Assembly (NCBI GenBank): GCA_028710565.1
Contig: JAQTTV010000017.1
Location: forward strand, 1-64,000
Source: Gallionella sp.
GTDB taxonomy: Bacteria; Pseudomonadota; Gammaproteobacteria; Burkholderiales; Gallionellaceae
Reading direction: 5' to 3'
DNA length: 64,000 bases
The notes beneath the pieces were generated by a model. The model did no database searches. It saw only the letters and a program-made list of their open reading frames with translations, and was not told where the DNA came from. The position numbers and the translations under genes were made by a program. Positions 16,958 through 33,567 of the stretch are shown here, piece by piece (position 1 is the first letter of the stretch; each line of letters opens with the position of its first letter).

Positions 16958-17049
16958 GCCCGAGTGGTGAAATTGGTAGACACAACGGACTTAAAATCCG
17001 TCGCTTCGATAAAACGGGCGTACCGGTTCGATTCCGGTTTCGGGCACCA
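16958..17049 (+). tRNA. tRNA-Leu(TAA)
   Basis: A class II tRNA: acceptor GCCCGAG pairs with TTCGGGC (one G-U), the long variable arm contains CGCTTCGATAAAACGGGCG-type sequence, and the anticodon loop CTTAAAA reads UAA. CCA is encoded. Only five bases separate it from tRNA-Cys, so both come from one transcript. Confidence 0.95.
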
Positions 17050-17080
17050 ATCCAAAATAGAGAAAAGTACAGGGCTTATC

Positions 17081-18424
17081 ATGCTCAAAACACTGGGAAA
17101 CGTCATCAAATGGATCGTCGCAACCCTTGTGTTGCTAACTATTCTATTTTTCATCCTGAATCATATTGATGAATCGCTGCAACCTGATGCAGAAAAGCTG
17201 TTACATCCTTCGCTACTTGAAGTTCCCCCTGAAAAAAACGCCTACTTCACCCTAATTGGCCTCACCGCCCCCAGCGGCGTGAACGCGGCGGAATGGGGAC
17301 TCAAGACATCCCAAGCGCATAGGTTATATACCCCCCCTATCCTATCCAATGACCCCGTATGTGATCTAGAAGCCCAGCATTGTTTACGTCTTGCCAATCA
17401 ACACCCAGAACAACTCCAACAAGCATTGGCCGCGCAACCTGAATTGGTCGCACGCTATATCGCCGCACGACAATTTCCACAATTTTCCGAAAGCACGGGC
17501 AAACAAAGCATTGATCCTTACCCTAATTTTTCGGCTGCATTTCGTGCGCAAACCTTGCGCCACGCCCAAATTGCTTTATGGGTAGAAGCAGGGAAGATGG
17601 ATGCAGTCTTAGCTGAATTGACTGAAGACATGGCTTTTCAACGTCGCTGCCTCACGGGTGCGCAGACACTGATAGGCAAAATGGTGACCTTGGCGGCGTT
17701 GCAGCGTGACTATGTACTGCTCGCAGACTTAATGCGAGCAAAACCCAGCGAAATGGCTGCGCAACAAGCGAAGGTTCACGCCTTACTCATCCCCCTCACC
17801 GCCACTGAACGCGACATGCTACCTGCTATTCGACATGAATTCCGTATGTTGTCAGCGGCTCTGCGATCATTCAAATACGAGTCATTGCGCGAAGAATGGG
17901 CGCAAGCAGCAGTATGGATAGACACCATTCGTGCGCCTTTAATGGAAAACTTACTGTTGCGCAATGCCAGCATCAATCGCCTGTATCAGCTAGAACAAGC
18001 TGATGAAGCATTAGCGCGCGCTTTACCGCAGCATTTTGCTCAAAAACAAGCGGAGGCTCGCGCGTTGTCTATTCAACTGTCGGATGTTGATTGGCGTTAT
18101 ATTTACAATCCTGTTGGAAAATGGCTGGTTGAGCTGAGTCGTGTCGATTATCACCGCTATATTCGTCGCCCACACGAACTGGATGCATTTATTCGCTTGA
18201 TGATCTTGCAACAGCAAATCACGGACATGAACATCACGGAGGCGAACCTCCCAGCGTTTCTCAACAACAGCGCGCCAGAATTGCACAATCCTTTTAATGG
18301 TCAACCTGTTTCATGGGATGCGGATCGTCACGAACTTTTTATTGAGCTAGCAGGTGGCGCACTTCAATATAAACGCTACGGTAAAAATCGCCAACGCATT
18401 GCACTGCCCCTCGCCATAAAATAA
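17081..18424 (+). CDS. Membrane-anchored protein of unknown function
   Basis: The ORF-track start lies within tRNA-Leu; the ATG at 17081 gives 447 residues. One N-terminal membrane helix (about residues 9-27, IKWIVATLVLLTILFFIL) is followed by a large periplasmic, mostly helical domain with no cofactor motifs. A CDLEAQHCLRLANQ segment offers two cysteines near residue 97 that could form a disulfide. I do not recognise the family. It sits 31 bases after the tRNA cluster and may be read through from it. The insertion-like element at 18430 begins five bases after the stop. Confidence 0.8.
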   Translation: MLKTLGNVIKWIVATLVLLTILFFILNHIDESLQPDAEKLLHPSLLEVPPEKNAYFTLIGLTAPSGVNAAEWGLKTSQAHRLYTPPILSNDPVCDLEAQHCLRLANQHPEQLQQALAAQPELVARYIAARQFPQFSESTGKQSIDPYPNFSAAFRAQTLRHAQIALWVEAGKMDAVLAELTEDMAFQRRCLTGAQTLIGKMVTLAALQRDYVLLADLMRAKPSEMAAQQAKVHALLIPLTATERDMLPAIRHEFRMLSAALRSFKYESLREEWAQAAVWIDTIRAPLMENLLLRNASINRLYQLEQADEALARALPQHFAQKQAEARALSIQLSDVDWRYIYNPVGKWLVELSRVDYHRYIRRPHELDAFIRLMILQQQITDMNITEANLPAFLNNSAPELHNPFNGQPVSWDADRHELFIELAGGALQYKRYGKNRQRIALPLAIK

Positions 18425-18719: not shown

Positions 18720-19658
18720 CTAACCCAGCAAATGCGTCAACGTTAGCATAGCCAGCAATACTAACCAAAAAAGCACGGCGCGCCACACCAAGCCCACCGT
18801 GCTTTGCATAAACCCTGTATCAGCATCGTCGCCCACACCCAATTCAGCACGATCCAGCAGCAATCCTTCTTGAGGAAGCGGCATTCCTAATCTCACGCCC
18901 AGCGAGCCTGCCCCACTGGCGAGCAAAATGCCAATCTCGCGATCCGCCCAATTGGCGGCTTGGCTGCGCCAACAATACACCGTGTTCTCAAAATCACCCA
19001 CAATGGCAAAGGTCAGTGACGCGAGACGAATAGGCAACCATTCTAGATAGTAATCGACACGACGAGAAAACTCACCGAAGGCACCGAACTCTGCTTGATC
19101 GGCATCACCCCACTGCGTGCGTAAAAACTGTCCTAAACGATACAACAATGCCCCCGCTGCGCCCCCTGCACCTAAAACACTAAATAAAACAAACCATACA
19201 ATGACCCCAAATACGTTGCGATGCGAGGACAATAATGCCTGCTCAATGGCGACCCTCGCCACCTCTTCTTGATTCAATTCATGCGTTGCCATCCCACTCC
19301 ATGTCGCCAGCGTTTGCTGCGCGCCATTCAGTTCGTCCGCACGCAAACGCTGATAAATATCAGTAAAGTAATGACTAAATTGGCGAAATCCCATCGTCAT
19401 GTATAAAACCAATACGTTAAATGACCACGCCAACAAGGGATTCACATGATGTAGCCACCAAAATATCAGCACAACCAAGCTGGTGAGCGGCAGCACTGCC
19501 AACAACCATGCAACTCTGCCGTGTTTTTGCTCCCCTGCATTGAACTTCTGCTGAAAGAAGTTGACATACCGCGACAACCAACCAAACAGATACTGACGCG
19601 AGGACAATGGATGAAATTGTTCCAGCAATAATGCCGCGATCAAAGCAAATAGGCTCAT
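18720..19658 (-). CDS. CobD/CbiB-family membrane protein
   Basis: A 312-residue protein with helices at about 50-70, 75-95, 150-180 and 290-310, and the CobD/CbiB-type segments GFRQFSHYFTDIYQRLRADE, VARVAIEQALLSSHRNVFG and YYLEWLPIRLASLTFAIVGDF. True CobD makes adenosylcobinamide phosphate, but no cobalamin gene is nearby and many beta- and gammaproteobacteria carry a divergent paralog (also related to AmpE) of unknown role near housekeeping genes. I therefore call the family and not the reaction. It is transcribed alone. Confidence 0.7.
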   Translation of the reverse strand: MSLFALIAALLLEQFHPLSSRQYLFGWLSRYVNFFQQKFNAGEQKHGRVAWLLAVLPLTSLVVLIFWWLHHVNPLLAWSFNVLVLYMTMGFRQFSHYFTDIYQRLRADELNGAQQTLATWSGMATHELNQEEVARVAIEQALLSSHRNVFGVIVWFVLFSVLGAGGAAGALLYRLGQFLRTQWGDADQAEFGAFGEFSRRVDYYLEWLPIRLASLTFAIVGDFENTVYCWRSQAANWADREIGILLASGAGSLGVRLGMPLPQEGLLLDRAELGVGDDADTGFMQSTVGLVWRAVLFWLVLLAMLTLTHLLG

Positions 19659-19924: not shown

Positions 19925-21682
19925 ATGTTGTTTCGTCCTACTGTTTTCGCGATGTTATGTGTTACCTTATTCCCCTTGTCCGCACAAGCGGAGTCCTCCA
20001 CCCCACAAGGTTTATTCGATGTTTATCAAGAAAATAGAGAGCGAGACATTGCCAACTTGGTAACACCCGATCTACTCCTCGTTTCTTATAGCCTACTGCG
20101 CCAACAACTGAATCAACAGGCAGAAGCTAAAGTTGTGATCCCTGCCTTTCAGGCCTTGCTCAATGGCTTACAAAAGAAACTGACAACCGATAAGAATGAT
20201 GCCGTTGGTCAATTGGGACGGGATTATTTGACCTTGCTACAAGCGATGCAAACAGGTGAATTAGCTAAAAAATCCCCTGCACATGTGCAAAGAGAATGGG
20301 AACTGATACAACAAGCGGCGGGTGTGACGGAATCTCCTGTGTGGGGCATTCCCTTGGATTATTCACAGTTTAAGCCGCGTGGACGCTATATGATGTCCGA
20401 ATCGCTTCAACATTTCTTTACAGCCTATCGCTACGCTAATTCCGTTAACTTCTTTGTCCAACCCAGCTTGGCAACAGGTGTCAGTCCTGAAAAATCCCAG
20501 CAAATGACACAACTCGCGGTGCGTCTCTCACAAATTATCAACAAAAATCCTTTCCTGAAAGCACACTTCGACAGCCTGAATCAAGCAAGCAATTGGGAGT
20601 ACGGTGCAGCGGGGGACTTAAGCGCACAAGATGTGCCACTGGCATTAAAGGATGTAAAAGAAAGTAATCAATACGGCGCAGCTTTATTGGCTTACGCACA
20701 GAAGACGAACAAACTCCCCCAAGTAATCGACTTTCCCGTGGATACAGGCAAGTTAGACAAAAATCAAAAACTGGCGGAAGTCGCTGTGGGTTGGCGACTC
20801 ATTCCAGGGACACTGAATCCAGATGCCATGGCAACGCAAGCCGTGCTCTACCCCAATACCCAACAATTTATCAGCCCTTGTGGCACGATCAGCTGCGTAG
20901 AACCATGGACAGTTTCGCGACTGGATGGCGTGCAGGCAAAAGGCTATGTCAGCGGCATGGAGGTGATGAGTTGGCTAGGGTCAGAAACGGCACGTTGGAC
21001 AAGTCAGCGCAATGGTGACCATCTTTACACAGGCTATGGCGAAGCAAGTAAGCGTGCACAAGACTTGCTGCAAAACGATCCCAGCTTGAGCGGGGCACAA
21101 ATGCAATTTATGCATAACGTATTCACCCAAAAGGGAACGCCTCCCACACGACAACTCACTAGTATGCTGGGATTCTGGACATGGCAACGCAATATCAACG
21201 CCTTGTACGCCAAACAACCTTCCAGCGCAGGCAGTAAATTCATAGGCTCGACTAAAGTGGTTGCACGGGCGGGCGCGAAATTATTGGGTGGGACAGCTTT
21301 TTATCACGCGCTCTCTCAACTGGCACAACAACATCAAACACATGGCGACACCGAAATATGGCAACAATTTGCCGACATCACGACGCGCTTAGAACAATTG
21401 GCGAATAAAGCAGACGGTAGTTTGAATGAAGAAGAGGAATCCTACCTCAATGCTTTGGATCAAACGCTGCTGACCTTAACGAAAACCAAAGACGCACCTA
21501 TCGTCATTGACGTTCAAACCAATCCTGCCGATAAGCTGGTGGTTGAAGAAGCCATAGGCTTACCAGACATCGACATACAGGGCGCAGCACGGGGTGCGTG
21601 GTTTAGTCATTATGAATTCAAGCAAGCCATGTCGGATCGACTCACCCATGAAGCATGGCGCAAACAAGTCAAAATCAAGTAA
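19925..21682 (+). CDS. Exported DUF3160-like protein
   Basis: A 585-residue protein with a cleavable signal peptide (cut after AQA, about residue 22). The mature part begins TPQGLFDVYQENRERDIAN and continues VTPDLLLVSYSLLRQQ, a pattern I associate with DUF3160. It is helical, with two cysteine pairs at most (SPCGTISCVEPW) and no enzyme motif I can name. AGGGAG lies seven bases before the ATG. It leads a same-strand run with the WD40-caspase, an OmpA-type protein and an FGE-fold protein, all exported, spaced 40, 110 and 54 bases, suggesting a joint envelope function. Confidence 0.75.
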   Translation: MLFRPTVFAMLCVTLFPLSAQAESSTPQGLFDVYQENRERDIANLVTPDLLLVSYSLLRQQLNQQAEAKVVIPAFQALLNGLQKKLTTDKNDAVGQLGRDYLTLLQAMQTGELAKKSPAHVQREWELIQQAAGVTESPVWGIPLDYSQFKPRGRYMMSESLQHFFTAYRYANSVNFFVQPSLATGVSPEKSQQMTQLAVRLSQIINKNPFLKAHFDSLNQASNWEYGAAGDLSAQDVPLALKDVKESNQYGAALLAYAQKTNKLPQVIDFPVDTGKLDKNQKLAEVAVGWRLIPGTLNPDAMATQAVLYPNTQQFISPCGTISCVEPWTVSRLDGVQAKGYVSGMEVMSWLGSETARWTSQRNGDHLYTGYGEASKRAQDLLQNDPSLSGAQMQFMHNVFTQKGTPPTRQLTSMLGFWTWQRNINALYAKQPSSAGSKFIGSTKVVARAGAKLLGGTAFYHALSQLAQQHQTHGDTEIWQQFADITTRLEQLANKADGSLNEEEESYLNALDQTLLTLTKTKDAPIVIDVQTNPADKLVVEEAIGLPDIDIQGAARGAWFSHYEFKQAMSDRLTHEAWRKQVKIK

Positions 21683-21721
21683 TCGTATCCCCTAATTTTT
21701 GCCAAGGCGAAGGAGAGAACA

Positions 21722-24613
21722 ATGAATATAAAACCACTCTTTAAATCATCATACTGGATGATGTTATGTCTCTTCACAAGTACATATGCACAAGCGGATG
21801 TGATGCCCACCGAACCCATTTTGCGCATTGACACGGGTGACCATGTCGCTGTGATTAGACGGATTGCCTCGGATGATGCGGGGCGTTGGTTGGCAACGGC
21901 TTCAGATGACAAAACGGTACGCGTATGGGATTTGAGCAACAATGGTCGTTTGGTCACCACCTTGCGCCCCCCAATTGGCTTGGGCAATATCGGCAAGCTC
22001 AATGCCGTCGCGATGTCACCCGATGGCAAGCTGGTTGCGACAGGGGGTTGGACAGATGATTCGGATAATTCAGCTTACCTGTTTGACCGTGCCAGTGGTC
22101 GCATGATCCATCGCTTATTAGGCTTACCGAATGTAGTCAATCACCTGGCTTTTTCACCTGATAATCGACTGATCGCCGTATCTTTAACCTTAAAGCATGG
22201 TATTCGTTTGATGTCGGCTGAGACGGGGAAGGTGGTGGCTGAAGACAAGGATTATGGTGGTGCAAGTTTCAGCGCGCACTTTAGTCGAGATGGCCGATTA
22301 ATTACCAGCAGTGAAGATGGCTATGTGCGGATTTATCGCTATGGCGATAATTCTCTTAGTCTCATCAGTAAGGAAAAAGCTGCTGGCGGAACGGATCCTG
22401 GATCAACCGTGTTTTCCAATGACAGTCGCCGCGTCGCCGTTGGGTTCTACGACAAAAACACCATCAGCGTGCTGGATGGCGGTGACCTGTCTTTACGCTA
22501 CTCCCCAGACATCTCTGGCGCGACAGCATCCATGCAATGCACCGCATGGTCGGATAATGGCAACTGGTTGTATGCCGCTGGCTCATCGCAAAGTGGGGAC
22601 AAGCGTTTTATTCGCCGCTGGAAAGCATACGACCTTAGCGCGGGAAACTTCGTAGACTGGCCTGTTTCTAGTGACACCATTATGTTTTTATCCGCCCTGC
22701 CTGGGGATAAAGTCGCTTTTAGCACGGGGGAACCTAGCTGGGGCGTGATGAATTCATCGGGCGAGAAAGTGATTTACCACGGTGCACCTGTGGTCGATTT
22801 TCGCTCCAATTACGAAGGCTTTAAGTTGTCACGCGATGCATCAAAAGTGCGTTTTGGTTACTTGAATTACGGCAAAGACCCTGTGGTATTTGATGTTCAA
22901 CGGCGTGCTTTCCTGCCCGAAAATGCCGACGGACTGAATTCGCCCGTTATTTCAACTTCGGCTTTGACCGTGTCCAATTGGAAAAACTATCTCGATCCCA
23001 AGCTCAATAACAATCCTTTGACGCTCAAGTCGAACGAAAGGTCACGTAGCGTAGCGATGCGCTTTGATACGGTCGGTTTTGTACTAGGGACAGAATGGCG
23101 GTTGCGTGCCTTTGATGGCGCGGGTAAACAAGTCTGGGAAAAACCAGTTCCAGGCTCCGCATGGGGGGTGAATACCTCGCAAGATGGTCGCTGGGTCGTT
23201 GCCAGCTATAGTGATGGCACCATCCGCTGGCACCGCGTGAGTGACGGCGAAGAGCAATTAGCCTTGTATCCAAGTCCTGATCGCAAACGTTGGGTCATGT
23301 GGACACCCAATGGGTATTACGATGCCAGTCCTGGTGCGGAAGATTTAATCGGATGGCATGTCAATAACGGCAAAGACCAAGCTGCGGACTTCTTCCCTGC
23401 TTCGCGTTTCCGTGACCGCTTCTATCGCCCCGACGTCATTAGCAAAGTGCTGGATTTAGGCACGGCCGATGCAGCTTTGCAACAGGCCAACCAAGAAACA
23501 GGTCGCAGAGAGCAAACTCAATCCATTACGGAAGTATTGCCACCTGTCATTACCATACTCTCTCCACCAGGGATGACCGTCAGCTCCACCACCATCAAAA
23601 TCAAGTACTCAGTACGCAGTCCTGACAACGCGCCTGTGACATCGGTTCGTGTACGGATTAACGGACAAGCCGTGACGGTTGAACGTGGATTAGCCCGTAA
23701 AGATAACCCCGCTGATCCAACGCGCGAAATCGAAGTCAAGATTCCTGAGTCTGACAGCGAAATTGCCCTATTTGCCGAAAACAGAAATGGCGTATCGGTT
23801 GCTGGCAAAGTCAATGTGGTATGGGGTGGTGCTCGCTCGATTCAATCTGAAGAAAGCCTATTCAAACCTAAACTTTATGTTTTGGCGGTTGGCGTATCGA
23901 AATACAAAAATGCGGATTACAACTTAGGACTCGCTTCTAAGGATGCGCGTGACTTTGCTGCCGTATTGCAAAAACAAAAGGGTCGCTTATATGGTGATGT
24001 GGTTGTCAAATTACTGACGGATGAGCAAGCTAACAAAGATGATGTGCTGGATGGCTTGGAATGGCTTAAATCCCAAGTAACTTCTCGCGACGTCGGGATT
24101 ATGTTCTTGGCGGGTCATGGTCTAAATGACAATAACGGCAATTACTACTTCCTGCCCCACAACGTCAATACCAGCCAATTACTCCGTACTGGGGTGGCAC
24201 AAAACGACATCAAAATCACCCTGAACAGCTTGGCGGGCAAGGCGATATTCTTTGTCGATACGTGTCATTCTGGCAACGCACTGGGTTCGGCTAAAACCCG
24301 TGGCGTGGCAGACACCAATGGAATCGTCAACGATCTGTCTTCCGCAGAAAATGGCGTGGTGGTGTTTGCGGCATCCACAGGCAAACAGTCTTCACAAGAA
24401 GATCCAGCTTGGGGTAACGGTGCCTTTACCAAGGCAGTCGTCGAAGGTTTGAGCGGCAAAGCAGACTTTGGTAATCGCGGTAAAATTACGCATAAAGGCT
24501 TGGATTATTACGTCGCAGAACGTGTGAAAGAACTGACCCATGGTCAACAATCTCCTGTCAGTATCGCGCCAAATGGCGTGGCAGACTTCCCGATTGCAAT
24601 TACAGGGAAATAG
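21722..24613 (+). CDS. Exported WD40-repeat caspase-like peptidase
   Basis: A 963-residue protein with a signal peptide (about residues 1-27, ending TYAQA). Residues about 35-530 hold degenerate WD40 blades (DDAGRWLATASDDKTVRVWD is the clearest), followed by an Ig-like linker (about 605-700) and a C14-type caspase domain (about 715-960). The catalytic dyad is intact: His799 in FLAGHGLND and Cys848 in FVDTCHSGN. Bacterial caspase homologs (orthocaspases and metacaspase-like proteins) usually cleave after Arg or Lys. Export is unusual, since most WD40-caspase proteins are cytoplasmic and linked to conflict systems. GGAGAG precedes the ATG. Confidence 0.88.
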   Translation: MNIKPLFKSSYWMMLCLFTSTYAQADVMPTEPILRIDTGDHVAVIRRIASDDAGRWLATASDDKTVRVWDLSNNGRLVTTLRPPIGLGNIGKLNAVAMSPDGKLVATGGWTDDSDNSAYLFDRASGRMIHRLLGLPNVVNHLAFSPDNRLIAVSLTLKHGIRLMSAETGKVVAEDKDYGGASFSAHFSRDGRLITSSEDGYVRIYRYGDNSLSLISKEKAAGGTDPGSTVFSNDSRRVAVGFYDKNTISVLDGGDLSLRYSPDISGATASMQCTAWSDNGNWLYAAGSSQSGDKRFIRRWKAYDLSAGNFVDWPVSSDTIMFLSALPGDKVAFSTGEPSWGVMNSSGEKVIYHGAPVVDFRSNYEGFKLSRDASKVRFGYLNYGKDPVVFDVQRRAFLPENADGLNSPVISTSALTVSNWKNYLDPKLNNNPLTLKSNERSRSVAMRFDTVGFVLGTEWRLRAFDGAGKQVWEKPVPGSAWGVNTSQDGRWVVASYSDGTIRWHRVSDGEEQLALYPSPDRKRWVMWTPNGYYDASPGAEDLIGWHVNNGKDQAADFFPASRFRDRFYRPDVISKVLDLGTADAALQQANQETGRREQTQSITEVLPPVITILSPPGMTVSSTTIKIKYSVRSPDNAPVTSVRVRINGQAVTVERGLARKDNPADPTREIEVKIPESDSEIALFAENRNGVSVAGKVNVVWGGARSIQSEESLFKPKLYVLAVGVSKYKNADYNLGLASKDARDFAAVLQKQKGRLYGDVVVKLLTDEQANKDDVLDGLEWLKSQVTSRDVGIMFLAGHGLNDNNGNYYFLPHNVNTSQLLRTGVAQNDIKITLNSLAGKAIFFVDTCHSGNALGSAKTRGVADTNGIVNDLSSAENGVVVFAASTGKQSSQEDPAWGNGAFTKAVVEGLSGKADFGNRGKITHKGLDYYVAERVKELTHGQQSPVSIAPNGVADFPIAITGK

Positions 24614-24723
24614 GATTGATGGTGAAAAGTGAAACGTGAAAGATGGGCAGTGTGGGTGTGCAACAGTTTGCTTCACATTTCACCTCTCACCTTTCACAAA
24701 AAATCAGCTTTGAAAGGATTACC

Positions 24724-25584
24724 ATGCAAAATTTGATACGTAATTTAGTCTTATTCGGTGTATTTGCCAGCGCGCCTGTATTGGCAGAGGAAGACTGTTC
24801 CGAAGCGGTTCGTATTACCCAACAAGCCGAAGGACAAGCGCAACTTGCCCATCGTCTAAACGAGTACACCCAAGCCAGAAGCCTGTGTCCAAGCGATCCG
24901 CGTATGCACTACCGTGAGGGATTAGCATTGATGGCAAGTGCTCGTTATGCTGAGGCGCACAGCGCGCTCATGAATGCGATGGAGCAAGCAACCAAACAAA
25001 ACCTTCCTCCTATGATGCGTTTAGAAGTGCTAGGCAGACTGGCTGAAAATGACTATCGCAGTGAAAATCGTCCCAAAGCCTTGATCGGCTTCAAAGTAGC
25101 CAGAGAGTTTGCCAAAAAACATCAACTCTCCTTGCCCGACTGGGTCGTCCCCTTACAAAAGGACTTGGATCAACAATTAGACAAACGCCCACTCACCCCC
25201 ACAGAAATGCAGGCCTCATTGCGTTCTATGCGAGATTTGGGGGTAGAACCGACCGTGGATTATCGCGTGTTATTCGAGTTCAATAGCGATCAACCCACTG
25301 AAGCAGGTAAACAACAATTGAGTCAAATTGCCGCCTCGCTACAAGCTGACAACGGCACGATTCGCGTCATTGGACATACCGATGTACAAGGCAAGAAAGC
25401 CTATAACCAACAGCTTTCCGAACGACGTGCAAAACGTATCGTCGCTTTACTGCTTGGTGAAAATCCTGCTTTGCAAGGACATTTACAAGCGCAGGGAAAA
25501 GGGATGACACAACCTAAATACCCAGGCAATAGTGAAGAGGATCATCAACTAAATCGCCGTGTCGAGTTCGTCTTTGCGCAATAA
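24724..25584 (+). CDS. Exported TPR-like protein with C-terminal OmpA domain
   Basis: The track start is too early; ATG 24724 has GAAAGGA seven bases upstream and opens a signal peptide (LVLFGVFASAPVLA), giving 286 residues. Residues about 25-150 are helical repeats like TPRs; residues about 180-286 form an OmpA/MotB domain (VLFEFNSDQPTEAG, VIGHTDVQGKKAYNQQLSERRA, NRRVEF), which binds peptidoglycan. It would tether the neighbouring exported caspase and FGE-fold proteins to the wall if they interact, which is inference from gene order. Confidence 0.85.
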   Translation: MQNLIRNLVLFGVFASAPVLAEEDCSEAVRITQQAEGQAQLAHRLNEYTQARSLCPSDPRMHYREGLALMASARYAEAHSALMNAMEQATKQNLPPMMRLEVLGRLAENDYRSENRPKALIGFKVAREFAKKHQLSLPDWVVPLQKDLDQQLDKRPLTPTEMQASLRSMRDLGVEPTVDYRVLFEFNSDQPTEAGKQQLSQIAASLQADNGTIRVIGHTDVQGKKAYNQQLSERRAKRIVALLLGENPALQGHLQAQGKGMTQPKYPGNSEEDHQLNRRVEFVFAQ

Positions 25585-25638
25585 AGTAGTATAAAATGCC
25601 TAGCCACTCCTGTTGTCCATTCAACGTAAGGAATTTTC

Positions 25639-26667
25639 ATGCTCAGTAGTATTGCAATTGCAGTCGTTATTTTAGGCGGAATATTGATCCTTTTTGGATT
25701 GATGGGCATCAGATTGAAATTTTTTGGACAGCCCTTGCAGCAATGGTTGGGTGAGTTTGCCCGAGGGATCGGTTTGGTCGTGGGTATTTGTCTCATTACT
25801 TTGGGCATTTGGCTCTATCCCAACCACGAATCAATCAGAGGTATGGCAAAAGACGAAGTGGCTAAAGCAGAGTTGCAAGCCGCGCCGCTTCCCCAACAAA
25901 TATCGACCAAACCAGGCTCCGTGTTTCGGGACTGTCCAAGTTGCCCAGAAATGATCGTGCTACCCGCAGGTAAGTTTTTAATGGGCGCACCCGAAGCAGA
26001 AACTGCACACGAACAAATGGAGATGCCCCAGCATAGTGTCACCCTTAATTATGCTTTAGCCGTGGCGAGAACAGAGATCTCTTTTGCCGAATGGGATGTC
26101 TGTTCAACAGCAGGAGTCTGTCGCAAAAACGTTGAAAGCAATTGGCCACGTGGGCAACAACCTGCCATCAACATTAACTGGAATGATGCGAATACTTACA
26201 TAGAGTGGCTCTCCAAGACGACAGGTCAATCCTATCGTTTGCTCACAGAGTCCGAATGGGAATATGCCGCTCGTGGCAATACTCAAACCGCCTACTCTTG
26301 GGGAAATCAAATCGGCAATAATCAAGCCAATTGCTCCCTATGCGGTTCACAGTCCACACAGTCCAAAGTTATTGGGCCACAACTGGTCGGCTCTTATACC
26401 CCAAATTTATTCGGTTTATTTGATATGCACGGCAATGTGCAAGAATGGGTACAGGATTGCTGGCATGAAAACTACCAAGGTGCGCCACAAGATGGAAGCG
26501 CGTGGATCACCGCTTGCAGCGAAGGTCGGCGCATCGTGCGTGGCGGCGCATGGGACAGTAGCGCAACCGCATTACGTAGCGCAGCGCGTGACCGAAAAAC
26601 ATGGGATCACCTCAGTCCGAGCATCGGTTTCCGTGTGGCACGCGTCATCACTCTAGCCAATCTATAG
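25639..26667 (+). CDS. Membrane-anchored FGE-sulfatase-fold protein
   Basis: A 342-residue protein with two N-terminal membrane helices (about 3-22 and 45-62) and a formylglycine-generating-enzyme/C-type-lectin-like domain (about 100-338): GKFLMGAPE, RTEISFAEWDVC, RLLTESEWEYAARG, LFDMHGNVQEWVQDCW, RIVRGGAWDSSA and IGFRVAR. The two active-site cysteines of true FGE near the C-terminus are absent, so a binding role is more likely than formylglycine formation. Cysteines in FRDCPSCPEM suggest a disulfide. Last of the exported four-gene set. Confidence 0.85.
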   Translation: MLSSIAIAVVILGGILILFGLMGIRLKFFGQPLQQWLGEFARGIGLVVGICLITLGIWLYPNHESIRGMAKDEVAKAELQAAPLPQQISTKPGSVFRDCPSCPEMIVLPAGKFLMGAPEAETAHEQMEMPQHSVTLNYALAVARTEISFAEWDVCSTAGVCRKNVESNWPRGQQPAININWNDANTYIEWLSKTTGQSYRLLTESEWEYAARGNTQTAYSWGNQIGNNQANCSLCGSQSTQSKVIGPQLVGSYTPNLFGLFDMHGNVQEWVQDCWHENYQGAPQDGSAWITACSEGRRIVRGGAWDSSATALRSAARDRKTWDHLSPSIGFRVARVITLANL

Positions 26668-26731: not shown

Positions 26732-27088
26732 TTACACCTGCCCATACTTTTGATTGAATGTCTCGTCACTCATCGAGAGCAGCAGGATAAACTCGATCAA
26801 CGCGACAATGGCAGGAATAAACGTCCAGCAAAAGAGTAAATAAAGGATGCCTAGCCCAATTTGACCGAGGTAAAACTTATGTGCCCCGAATCCACCGAGA
26901 AAAAAGGCAAATAGCACTGCGGCAATCCTGTTTTTACCATTGTCCGCCACAGGACCCAAATTGATCGCCAAGGGTTTACGCATTTGGCGTACACCACATT
27001 TTGGACAGATTTCAGCCTTCGCCTTAATCACCGACCCGCACTCACTGCAAAATTTCTCATCAACCGCTTTACTCGCAAACTCACTCAT
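26732..27088 (-). CDS. Zinc-ribbon TM2-domain protein
   Basis: A 118-residue protein with an N-terminal zinc ribbon (CSECGSVI and CPKCGVRQ, about residues 14-35) and a C-terminal TM2 domain: two helices with GFGAHKFYLGQIGLGILYLLF between. TM2 proteins are common small membrane proteins of unknown function. It is transcribed alone; a short inverted repeat TGCACAG/CTGTGCA lies between it and the convergent FGE-fold gene. Confidence 0.85.
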   Translation of the reverse strand: MSEFASKAVDEKFCSECGSVIKAKAEICPKCGVRQMRKPLAINLGPVADNGKNRIAAVLFAFFLGGFGAHKFYLGQIGLGILYLLFCWTFIPAIVALIEFILLLSMSDETFNQKYGQV

Positions 27089-29529: not shown

Positions 29530-29675
29530 TCCCGCACGCTTTCGTAAAAATTAAGGCGCGTATTATGCCGCAGAACACAGGATACGTCGCCGTCCAACGT
29601 TCGCGCATATCGACGGAATGAACCCCCTCACGTATGATGCGGCGCACTCCCTGCTTGCAGAAAAAGGTGATTCCC

Positions 29676-32447
29676 ATGACGCAATCTTCCCCAACTCCGA
29701 TTGAAGCACTCAAGGCATTGCTGGATGCAGGTTTACTCCAGCAAGTTGCTTACGATGCCGCCGTGTCTGCCATGCAAGCCCAACTCACGGGAAACGGGGC
29801 GATTGCCCAAGGAGAAAACAATGTTGCACTTGGGGCTGGCAGTGTTTATATCAACGGCAACTTTAACTTCGACGGGTTGCTCAAGCAAGGCACGCAAGCC
29901 AATGCCAGCAAGGAAGATATGCAGCGCGCTTACTTGGCGTGTATTTTGCAGTCGGCGGATGAGTTGCCGCTGTTTGCCAACGATAAAAAACTGAAACTTT
30001 CCTCTGTTTACACCGCGCTGCTAACCCAACGTAGCGAATCGAATGTCATCGAAAAATCCCCCGAACAGCAGGCCAAACTCCTCTCAGCCTTGGATGTATT
30101 GAATGCCGAAAAAAAGCTGGTACTGCTAGGCGGGCCTGGCAGTGGCAAAAGCACATTTGTCAATTTTGTCGCGCTGTCGATGGCGGGAGAGTTGCTGGGC
30201 GACAATACGCTCAATCTCGCCAGCCTCACCGCGCCGCTACCCAATGAGCAAGACAGCCGTCCACAACACTGGGATCACGGTGGGCTGCTACCCGTTTTGA
30301 TTACCTTGCGCGACTTTGCCAGTCAGTTGCCCCCAGCGGGATGCCCCGTGAATGCAGAAACAGTTTGCACCCATCTGCAAAAGAAACTCCAAGCGTATGC
30401 GCTGGCGGATTTTTATCCCCATTTGCGTGACGAAATGTTGCAAGGGCGCGCCATGATTTTGTTTGACGGACTGGACGAAGTGCCCGATGCAGATGAGCGG
30501 CGGTTGCAAATCAAACAAGCGGTGCAAGAATTTGCCAAAACCTTTTTCCGCAGCCGTTTTCTGGTAACCAGCCGCACCTACGCCTATCAACGGCAAGACT
30601 GGAAACTGGATGGTTTTGCAGCGGTTGACCTGTTGCCCTTCACGCTGGGGCAAATTCATCGCTTTGTCGAAGTGTGGTATCAGCAGATGGTGCATCTGCA
30701 CAAGCTCACCGCCGTCAGTGCAGCAGATCGCGCCGAAGTATTGCTTCGCACGGTAGAACGCAACGAACGTCTGTTCAAATTGGCGGAACGACCGTTATTG
30801 CTGACTTTAATCGCCCAAATCCAAACTGACAAAGGCGGCGACCTGCCCGAAAAACCTGAGCAACTTTACGACAAAGCCGTTGAAATGCTGCTGAATCAAT
30901 GGGAAGGGATGAAGAAAGTCATCGGCGAAAAAGGTGAAGAAATCATCCAGCTCAGTCTTGCCGAGTATCTCGATGTCGGGAAAGACAAAATCCGAAAACA
31001 ACTCAATCGCTTGGCATTTGAGGCACATCGTGACCAACCCGACCTCAGGGACACTGCCAGCATTCGGCAAGCGGACTTGATTTGCGCCCTGATGAACGCC
31101 AGTCCAACCCCTGAAAAAGTGAAGCCCAAACTTTTGGAGCGGTATTTGAGTGAGCGCGCAGGCATTTTGGCGGCACACGGCAACAAAATGTACCAATTCC
31201 CGCACCGCTCTTTTCAAGAATATCTCGCCGCCTGCCATCTGACCGATGACGATTTTCCTGAGCAATTAGTGGAATTATTCCTCAACGATACCAATCGTTG
31301 GCGCGAAGTAGTGTTGCTGGCAGGGGCAAAAGCCGCACGCGGTGCAGCGGTCAATGCTTGGATGTTAAGCGAAACCTTGTGCCCAGAAATTCCCACGGGG
31401 CAGGATGATGAAAAAGATCATTTCGGCGCGCTGTTAGCGGGACGCGTGCTGGTGGAGAGTGCAGATTTAAGCCACGTTGCGCGCCGCGACCTGCCCAAAC
31501 TGGATCGCATCCGCACTTGGCAACTTGCTATTTTGCGCCAAAACGTCTTGCCCGCCCTAGATCGTGCACTGGCAGGACGAACCCTCGCCACATTGGGCGA
31601 TACGCGGCAAGAAGTGATGACACTGGACGAGATGCAATTTTGCTATGTCCCCGCAGGCAGCTTTACCATGGGCGAAGGCGAGGAAGCGCATTCTGTTACA
31701 TTGCAACAACCCTATTGGATGGCGCGCTTTCCTGTGACGCTCGCACAATGGCGTGAGTATTTGCAATGCAGCGGCAACGCGCCTGACGATGATGACAGCC
31801 TGAAAGGTCATGGCAATGTGCCTGTTGCCAATGTCACATGGCATGACGCACGGCGTTTTTGCGATTATCTCACCCAAGCATGGCAAGCTGTTTTACCCAA
31901 GGGCTATATCGTCACTTTGCCGTCCGAAGCGGAATGGGAGCAAGCCGCACGCGGCGGCGAATGGATACCAGATGCCCCGCGTTATGCCTCAGTCGCGCAA
32001 ATGGGAAAATGCGTGGAAACACCTTTGCACGTCAATGCTTCGCCGCAACGTGGTTATCCTTGGGGCGATGACTTTGACGCAGACAAAGCCAATGTCAATA
32101 CACCTTTCGGTGAGGCCAGCGTGGTCGGTTGCTATCCGTTAGGCGCAAGTCCTTACGGCTGCGAAGAAATGAGCGGCAATGTATGGGAATGGACGCGTAG
32201 CTTATGGGGTAGAGATAGGCGAAAACCAGAATATAGCTATCCATATCAACCTGACGATGGGCGTGAAAATCTGGATACGGACGATACGGGGGGGCGGGTG
32301 CTTAAGGTGCTGCGCGGCGGATCTTGGGGCTGGCCCAGTGACTATGCACGCTGTGCCTTGCGCTTCTGGGTTGATCCTAACTTTCGTATTGTCGGTATCG
32401 GCTTTCGGGTCGTGTTGCGTTTTTCCCCTGTTAACTCTGGACTCTGA
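29676..32447 (+). CDS. NLR-like NACHT NTPase with C-terminal FGE/lectin domain
   Basis: The start is ATG 29676 behind AAAGGTGA (923 aa), not the track start. A short helical opening (LKALLDAGLLQQVAYDA, SHOCT-like) leads to a Gly-rich motif at residues 39-63 (NGAIAQGENNVALGAG, then VYINGN) that is nearly repeated in the convergent gene at 32686. A NACHT-type STAND ATPase follows: Walker A GGPGSGKS (152-159), Walker B ILFDGLDEVP, sensor VTSRTYAY, and winged-helix region with FPHRSFQEYLAA. Residues about 648-918 are an FGE/C-type-lectin fold (PAGSFTMGEG, LPSEAEWEQAARGG, EEMSGNVWEW, LRGGSWGW, IGFRV). The plan matches immune-type sensors: recognition at the C-terminus, switch in the middle, signalling motif at the N-terminus. 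No leucine-rich repeats. Confidence 0.9.
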   Translation: MTQSSPTPIEALKALLDAGLLQQVAYDAAVSAMQAQLTGNGAIAQGENNVALGAGSVYINGNFNFDGLLKQGTQANASKEDMQRAYLACILQSADELPLFANDKKLKLSSVYTALLTQRSESNVIEKSPEQQAKLLSALDVLNAEKKLVLLGGPGSGKSTFVNFVALSMAGELLGDNTLNLASLTAPLPNEQDSRPQHWDHGGLLPVLITLRDFASQLPPAGCPVNAETVCTHLQKKLQAYALADFYPHLRDEMLQGRAMILFDGLDEVPDADERRLQIKQAVQEFAKTFFRSRFLVTSRTYAYQRQDWKLDGFAAVDLLPFTLGQIHRFVEVWYQQMVHLHKLTAVSAADRAEVLLRTVERNERLFKLAERPLLLTLIAQIQTDKGGDLPEKPEQLYDKAVEMLLNQWEGMKKVIGEKGEEIIQLSLAEYLDVGKDKIRKQLNRLAFEAHRDQPDLRDTASIRQADLICALMNASPTPEKVKPKLLERYLSERAGILAAHGNKMYQFPHRSFQEYLAACHLTDDDFPEQLVELFLNDTNRWREVVLLAGAKAARGAAVNAWMLSETLCPEIPTGQDDEKDHFGALLAGRVLVESADLSHVARRDLPKLDRIRTWQLAILRQNVLPALDRALAGRTLATLGDTRQEVMTLDEMQFCYVPAGSFTMGEGEEAHSVTLQQPYWMARFPVTLAQWREYLQCSGNAPDDDDSLKGHGNVPVANVTWHDARRFCDYLTQAWQAVLPKGYIVTLPSEAEWEQAARGGEWIPDAPRYASVAQMGKCVETPLHVNASPQRGYPWGDDFDADKANVNTPFGEASVVGCYPLGASPYGCEEMSGNVWEWTRSLWGRDRRKPEYSYPYQPDDGRENLDTDDTGGRVLKVLRGGSWGWPSDYARCALRFWVDPNFRIVGIGFRVVLRFSPVNSGL
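32322..32408 (+). other. Candidate diversified (DGR-type) variable region in the NACHT-FGE gene
   Basis: The last 30 codons read RGGSWGWPSDYARCALR, FWVDPNFRIV, then GIGFRV. In FGE-fold targets of diversity-generating retroelements, this stretch is RGGSW followed by Asn-rich variable sites, ending NIGFRV. Here the variable sites are mostly codons ending in C or T (GGC, AGT, GAC, TAT, TTC, GTT, GAT, TTT, ATT, GTC, GGT), as expected if AAC/AAT template codons were mutated only at A; two TGG and one TTG codons do not fit simply. No reverse transcriptase or template repeat is in the window. Confidence 0.45.
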
Positions 32448-32685: not shown

Positions 32686-33150
32686 CTAACCCAACGTTTC
32701 TTTGAGTTTTTCCAACACATATTCTGTCGCGGGTTTGGCAATGCCGCCGAGTATGGGCGAAGCAAACATACTCACGACCACACCCACGGCAGCGGGCACT
32801 AATGCCACAAAACCCTCGATCATTTTTGCCATCACTTTGTCTTCGGCTTTATCGCCCTTGGCAACTTCCGCCTTGAGAGCTTCAACGTGTTGCACCGCAG
32901 CGGCTTGTTTCTCGGCGGGGGCTAGTTTAATTTCGGTCAACAAAGGGGAAAACAGCAATGCTAATTGTTCGGCTGAAATGCCGTTGGTTTGCGTGCCAGT
33001 GTTGATATTGCCGCTATTGTTGCCGCCAACATGAACGGCTCCCGCACCGAGTGCTTGTGCCCCGTGACCTTGTGCGATTGCGCCGCTTCCGTTGACCGTG
33101 GCACTGTATGACGTGCCGCCTTGTGACGTTGCATTTTCGTTGTTTGGCAT
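32686..33150 (-). CDS. Small membrane-segment protein sharing the NACHT protein's Gly-rich motif
   Basis: ATG 33150 has AAGGGGA eight bases upstream and gives 154 residues; the track start is too early. Residues 21-55 hold NGSGAIAQGHGAQALGAGAV, then HVGGNNSGNINTGTQ, closely matching residues 39-63 of the convergent NACHT-FGE protein (NGAIAQG....ALGAG.V...GN). Residues 60-110 are charged amphipathic helix, and 114-138 are a hydrophobic helix (FVALVPAAVGVVVSMFASP), followed by an amphipathic tail. A Gly/Asn-rich, strand-prone motif shared by an NLR and a small membrane-active partner is the arrangement of amyloid-signalling pairs, so I suggest a pore-forming effector recruited by the NACHT protein. 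I recognise no named family. Confidence 0.7.
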   Translation of the reverse strand: MPNNENATSQGGTSYSATVNGSGAIAQGHGAQALGAGAVHVGGNNSGNINTGTQTNGISAEQLALLFSPLLTEIKLAPAEKQAAAVQHVEALKAEVAKGDKAEDKVMAKMIEGFVALVPAAVGVVVSMFASPILGGIAKPATEYVLEKLKETLG

Positions 33151-33299
33151 GGTGATTCCCCTTATTGGTGATACAAACCGCGTGGCAGGATTGCCACAGT
33201 ACGCGCCTTGATAAGGTGGACAGTCCGCCATCCCCTTGTTGGGCAGGGAATTATAAACGGCTTTGATTTTGGAGGAGAGGGAGATGCGCAGCGCATCCA

Positions 33300-33567
33300 T
33301 GATTTTTGACTATTCTTGCGGCGTTCGAGGCTATCTGGATCGCTTTACAGAACAGGGCGGTTATACCCCAGCCGAACCCACCCCCATCCTAATTGCCCCC
33401 TCGCTTCGCTCTCCCCCTCTGAAGGGGAAGGGACTATCACACTCTCCCCTTCAAGGGGAGAGCTGGAGAGGGGATGGGGTGATTCCGCCCTTGAAGAGGA
33501 GGGAGATTGTTCACTTGTGCCACGATGACCCACTATGATTCACATAGAGCCTGATTTTTGACTATTC
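33300..33567. mobile_element. Truncated, inverted DUF559 element (copy 3) with 16-bp direct repeats
   Basis: Read on the minus strand from 33551, it begins GGCTCTATGTGAATCATAGT, passes CTCCCC/TTCAAGGG hairpins and ends within the DUF559 C-terminal codons (TATAACCGCC..GTTCTGTAAAGCGATC), so the other terminus is lost. The same 16 bases, TGATTTTTGACTATTC, lie at 33300-33315 and 33552-33567 on either side. Confidence 0.65.

Follow-up and report, generated by a model that had tools for sequence, protein, structure and literature searches.

An exported WD40-caspase and its DUF3160, OmpA-domain and FGE-fold partners: a probable extracytoplasmic caspase module in a Gallionella-type bacterium

Bacterial caspase homologs have mostly been discussed as cytoplasmic death proteases. 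Four consecutive genes of a Gallionella-type betaproteobacterium (iron-oxidiser-like, genome 3.27 Mb) raise the question of whether a caspase may act as part of a unit outside the cytoplasm; a conserved exported cassette with a putative wall-binding partner would shift the bacterial caspase question to the envelope. Within the window (the whole analysed stretch of 64,000 nucleotides, contig JAQTTV010000017.1), the four plus-strand ORFs (19925-26667) were confirmed with unchanged coordinates and encode, in this order, a DUF3160 protein, a WD40-Peptidase_C14 protein, an OmpA-domain protein and an FGE-fold protein. As the preliminary description had it, every product carries an export signal or membrane anchor: the first three have signal-like N-termini and the FGE-fold protein has two helices. 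The group is isolated, both flanking genes (CobD-like upstream, 18720-19658; TM2 downstream, 26732-27088) lying on the minus strand, and its internal gaps measure 39, 110 and 54 bp if the OmpA gene is taken to start at 24724. Promoter and terminator scans yielded no more than in shuffled sequence. The nearest named relative, Gallionella sp. STC_38, has a 99% identical caspase. All four genes are under purifying selection, judged against a near-twin species (dN/dS 0.03 for the caspase, 0.07 for OmpA, 0.09 for DUF3160 and 0.17 for FGE).

The caspase (963 aa, 21722..24613, plus strand) was delineated by profile matches and an AlphaFold2 model. It matches Peptidase_C14 (PF00656) with 53 bits (gathering score 21.4) over residues 720-914, in addition to WD40 repeats, and consists of a signal peptide (1-25), one or more WD40 propellers (~33-547), three helices, an Ig-like domain (~608-705) and the C14 domain (~716-960). 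The model, built from 45 relatives, reached pLDDT 87.7 and pTM 0.86; in a Foldseek search ~317 of its residues aligned to the seven-bladed propeller 7bie (TM 0.90 on target, rmsd 2.6), and longer stretches aligned to 14-bladed proteins. The catalytic dyad described initially is indeed intact, with both His799 (motif AGHG, codon 24116..24118, plus strand) and Cys848 (DTCHSG, codon 24263..24265, plus strand) present in the window protein and kept in 68 of 73 long WD40-caspase relatives. Two aspartates, Asp741 in the first C14-domain helix (codon 23942-23944, plus strand) and Asp846 two residues before the catalytic cysteine (codon 24257..24259, plus strand), are invariant across the 45 relatives aligned and are predicted to be S1-pocket partners. 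By motif position, rather than by structure superposition, they match Asp95 and Asp211, the S1-pocket acids of TbMCA2 (PMC4357240), and cleavage after Arg/Lys is thus expected; the window caspase is likely to have this specificity.

The N-terminus of the caspase combines lysines, a short weakly hydrophobic stretch and an AxA site (YAQA/DV), and is Sec-like without a lipobox. Our strict signal-peptide script missed it and the signal peptide was read by eye (cleavage AQA/D). Under the simple rule of this script, 64 of 73 WD40-caspases have a signal-peptide-like N-terminus versus 152 of 596 other ORFs at the same loci. Export thus characterises the WD40-caspase family as a whole, not this strain in particular. 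The accompanying suggestion that it is unusual, most bacterial caspases being cytoplasmic, was not supported, as in the host genome a signal peptide or membrane anchor stands at the N-terminus of seven of the eight C14 proteins, and N-terminal signal-like helices in metacaspases were already noted in a 2012 survey (PMC3501461).

The OmpA-domain gene (24724..25584, plus strand) lies in an ORF that opens at 24643; the start at 24724 (MQNLIRNLVLFG...), which provides a good signal peptide (VLA/EE, no lipobox), is more likely judging from the sequence. The OmpA domain (25270-25557, plus strand; PF00691, 57 bits) retains the motif GHTD...YN..LS..RA, and the diaminopimelate-site residues D247 (GHTD) and R262 (LSxxRA), numbered from the ATG at 24643, are invariant. 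With this Asp and Arg the domain has the residues characteristic of peptidoglycan-binding proteins, and the wall anchoring proposed for it stands in the form of a putative wall-binding part. Of its description as a TPR-OmpA protein the OmpA half is confirmed; the remainder is helical and TPR-like, TPR repeats being below significance in the window protein itself (best E 0.047) and significant in five of seven family members. The gap preceding this gene (24614-24723) contains inverted repeats of the form GTGAAA/TTTCAC, and similar TTTCAC runs seem present at another locus (L044); the intergenic region 24600-24735 folds no better than shuffles.

The last gene (25639..26667, plus strand) encodes a 342 aa protein with two N-terminal TM helices followed by an FGE-like domain (25942-26643, plus strand; FGE-sulfatase PF03781, 167 bits). 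By the positive-inside rule, the positively charged loop between the two helices would make this domain periplasmic, and the ectodomain holds eight cysteines, as expected of a disulfide-bonded periplasmic domain. None of these is the catalytic pair of formylglycine-generating enzymes (motif RGGSxxCHxSYC), which is absent from the aligned stretch (RGGAWDSSATALRSAAR) in agreement with the original observation; what the protein shares with these enzymes is the fold. The closest solved structure is PvdO (5hha, 182 bits), with PorK also among the solved relatives; the closest curated model is likewise PvdO, at 220 bits against a cut-off of 500. The window protein further differs from PvdO in being membrane-anchored, and no pyoverdine genes occur among the neighbours examined. 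Its best match outside its own orthologues is a C14-FGE fusion (L044, 193 bits). The FGE domain is fused to C14 in sulfate reducers and is a separate gene in the window; in the host genome, which has 13 FGE domains in total, four of eight C14 genes are fused or adjacent to one. This fusion/split pattern suggests a working link between C14 and FGE domains.

The first gene of the set (19925..21682, plus strand) encodes a soluble exported protein of 585 aa (signal peptide AQA/ES, no lipobox) that matches the DUF3160 profile PF11369 over its full length (172 bits, gathering score 25). In the literature searched DUF3160 appears in one paper, as an uncharacterised secreted "enzyme"; no solved relative was found by sequence, and an AF2 model from three sequences reached only pLDDT 33. 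The family is rare around the host. The Pfam model matches two of 369 genomes of the class (one match being a fragment), and a profile of the caspase-linked subfamily (A2) matches one of 349 genomes of the order and one of 399 of the phylum, each time the host genome. A search of plasmids gave no DUF3160 match. The near-twin also has the caspase-linked form (L040), which within Proteobacteria was found only in these two species, and relatives of the window protein at 30-34% identity belong to Desulfobacterales. In a tree of 31 loci (partial loci were considered in addition) the caspase-linked sequences, including the window protein, form one clade with 100/100 support, and an exported C14 gene adjoins DUF3160 in all eight of its non-duplicate members whose flanks could be read; the sole member with no C14 seen (L168) is a fragment cut off by the end of its contig. 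C14 linkage is also found in a second clade (L144, L202, L203), and outside both clades only one of 20 loci (L207) has a C14 gene nearby. As far as the literature searched goes, this adjacency gives DUF3160 its first functional context.

How far is the set conserved? The exact gene order occurs only in the host species and the near-twin, and the proposed conservation of this order is true only in part. A Gallionellaceae genome (UBA5126, L058) has caspase-OmpA-FGE at the same locus, downstream of the same CobD-like gene, but lacks DUF3160. In Desulfobacterales, another phylum, the parts recur in a different order and with a different exported caspase, [exported C14-DUF4384]-DUF3160-TPR-OmpA-[exported C14 or C14-PEGA-FGE] (L143, L165, L166, L167, L169+L170), some of these cassettes having a C14-FGE fusion; at L164 and L172 a C14 gene lies directly upstream of DUF3160. 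Export signals were present on all components of the Desulfobacterales operon loci checked. Gene order is therefore not conserved, whereas module membership is, and with these Desulfobacterales cassettes the objection that the set belongs to a single strain fails. The carrier genomes (4.3-7.7 Mb) contain only 6-12 C14 genes each, so that finding C14 beside DUF3160 at each of these loci greatly exceeds what chance would give; by our own estimate, the chance of a C14 gene within two genes of a random gene is ~1% or less. The nearest WD40-caspase relatives outside the host, the near-twin and L058 (L051, L079, L085) have no OmpA, TPR or FGE neighbour. Desulfobacterales also contain multi-caspase clusters of exported C14 proteins (L144:5684-13944, L167:3588-19999), the former locus additionally encoding an exported clostripain-like protein (weak match).

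Overall, the view of the four-gene set as a module is well supported, and it probably works as a unit outside the cytoplasm since much of it recurs in distant sulfate reducers. To the full reading, one extracytoplasmic caspase module acting as a wall-tethered envelope sensor-protease, we would assign a probability of about 50%. What the sequence shows are the component proteins with their export signals, the catalytic dyad, the co-occurrence and the selective constraint; from these we infer tethering, physical complex, trigger and substrate as follows. The C14 protease would be exported by Sec and cleave after Arg/Lys, with the WD40 propeller(s) and the Ig-like domain forming its interaction face. 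The TPR-like/OmpA protein would bind peptidoglycan and serve as both tether and adaptor for the caspase. Fixed in the inner membrane and exposing its domain to the periplasm, the FGE-fold protein may contribute in trans, as a binding partner without enzymatic activity, what is contributed in cis in C14-FGE fusions. For the soluble DUF3160 protein we propose a role as a dedicated partner of exported caspases (inhibitor, activator or substrate), and a ligand or damage signal would release protease activity on envelope proteins.

The same inventory could belong to a housekeeping machine for envelope protein maturation or surface assembly, in which the caspase would be a processing or sortase-like enzyme held by wall-anchored and FGE-fold scaffolds, by analogy with PorU, PorK and PorE of type IX secretion. 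The kinds of folds are in fact the same, also in the envelope: PorE combines TPR, WD40 and OmpA domains, PorK has an FGE fold (the window FGE protein matches GldK/PorK with 104 bits) and PorU is a clan CD protease; in addition, several WD40-caspase family members adjoin two-partner secretion genes. The families are nevertheless separate by score, all type IX models falling far short of their cut-offs (GldK 104 bits against a cut-off of 350, PorE 38.5 against 600), and membership in type IX secretion was rejected on these scores; the type IX parts belong to another phylum, and no outer-membrane translocon was seen. SprA_N (PF14349) had no match in the host genome, a result of limited weight as the control search likewise gave no match. 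The window cassette shows no link to a family of secreted substrates, and we regard a maturation machine as unlikely. That the four genes are unrelated exported proteins brought together by chance would agree with the variable gene order, the absence of DUF3160 from L058 and the 110 bp gap with its inverted repeats before the OmpA gene; it is very improbable given that these families are again found side by side in another phylum, whose genomes have so few C14 genes each.

The preliminary description had offered periplasmic proteolytic sensing or self-destruction, of which the exported proteolytic module is borne out by components that recur in another phylum with export signals. In a self-destruction or conflict system an attacking phage or damage to the envelope would prompt the exported caspase to kill the cell or a neighbour. 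In favour of this, genes for related exported WD40-caspases are followed within 0-10 bp by TIR-TM-TPR genes, TIR being an effector domain of death and immunity; the patchy spread of the caspase-linked DUF3160 would also fit. The window cassette itself has no effector, toxin or TIR and neither a pore-former nor a lytic enzyme, and a PADLOC scan gave only low-scoring generic matches to the C14 and OmpA domains. Phage records contained only short C14-domain matches. The GC content of the four genes (48-50%) equals that of the window, giving no compositional sign of recent transfer, and the caspase is under strong purifying selection. Self-destruction thus finds no direct support, and we consider it quite doubtful.

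Returning to the wall-tethered sensor-protease, relatives of its caspase offer a broader context. Other exported WD40-caspases also neighbour envelope modules, namely two-partner secretion genes (L054, L111, L113, L114, L116), CHASE2-cyclases (L054, L055, L056, L066, L068, L116), and FecR and transglutaminase proteins. In one clade (support 1.0), which spans Thiotrichales, Methylococcaceae, Acidobacteriota and the STC_38 genome, the caspase is followed by a TM-TPR or TIR-TM-TPR protein, the gap being 0-10 bp at L102, L105, L107, L108 and L120. The pairs with TIR-TM-TPR (L105:1348-5516, L107:2181-6343, L108:9986-14338, L120:9908-14467; also L094, L096, L117), found in several phyla, have the look of a two-gene trans-membrane system not described before; from the positively charged residues that precede the helix, TIR would be cytosolic and TPR periplasmic. 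Such membrane-tethered partners in a related clade support a general design, in which an exported WD40-caspase would go with a TPR protein tethered in the periplasm. One may extend this to a modular extracytoplasmic surveillance system of Gram-negatives, in which WD40 or C14-FGE caspases sense envelope events, TPR proteins tether them to the wall (TPR-OmpA, as in the window) or to the inner membrane with cytosolic TIR (L105, L107, L108, L120), and DUF3160 is a dedicated partner. This generalization is tentative and, in our judgment, rather unlikely; if true, receptor-to-caspase/TIR signalling would have a counterpart in bacteria that runs across a membrane. Testable pairs are provided by C14-DUF3160, C14-OmpA and WD40-C14 with TIR-TM-TPR. 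The near-twin has a second exported WD40-caspase (L042:301-4443, 38% identical) paired with a TM-TPR protein devoid of TIR, and its counterpart was not found in the window's genome. The host genome contains a two-partner-secretion pair (L045:9833-16922), an ShlB/FhaC-like gene and a 1849 aa TpsA that ends in a C14 caspase domain, so that the predicted destination of this caspase is the cell surface.

Among described systems, the closest are the metacaspases/orthocaspases surveyed by Asplund-Samuelsson in 2012 (PMC3501461), which share the C14 His/Cys dyad; WD40 and FGE partners, exported metacaspases and multi-metacaspase operons in Deltaproteobacteria were already described there, and an OmpA domain occurred in 14 of 217 metacaspase operons. 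On the other hand, the DUF3160 partner, the cross-phylum C14-DUF3160-TPR/OmpA-C14(FGE) cassette and family-wide export are absent from the main text of that survey. As far as we could find, there is no precedent for the link to DUF3160, for the fusion/split pattern of FGE or for a cassette shared across phyla. The window C14 domain also matches the model NF047832 of the two-gene EACC1-caspase systems (Kaur et al. 2020, PMC7159879), at 75 bits and thus below its cut-off of 140, and none of the three window partner proteins matches an EACC1 model.

Elsewhere in the window, a NACHT-FGE NTPase (29634-32447, plus strand) and a nearby 204 aa protein (32686-33300, minus strand) have in common a glycine-rich repeat motif at the N-terminus (46% over 46 aa, E 1e-8), a similarity suggestive of homotypic sensor-effector pairing. 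The ORF 16964-18424 opens inside a tRNA-Leu gene (16958-17049), and its true start must lie downstream, at about the M of MLKTLGNVIKW.
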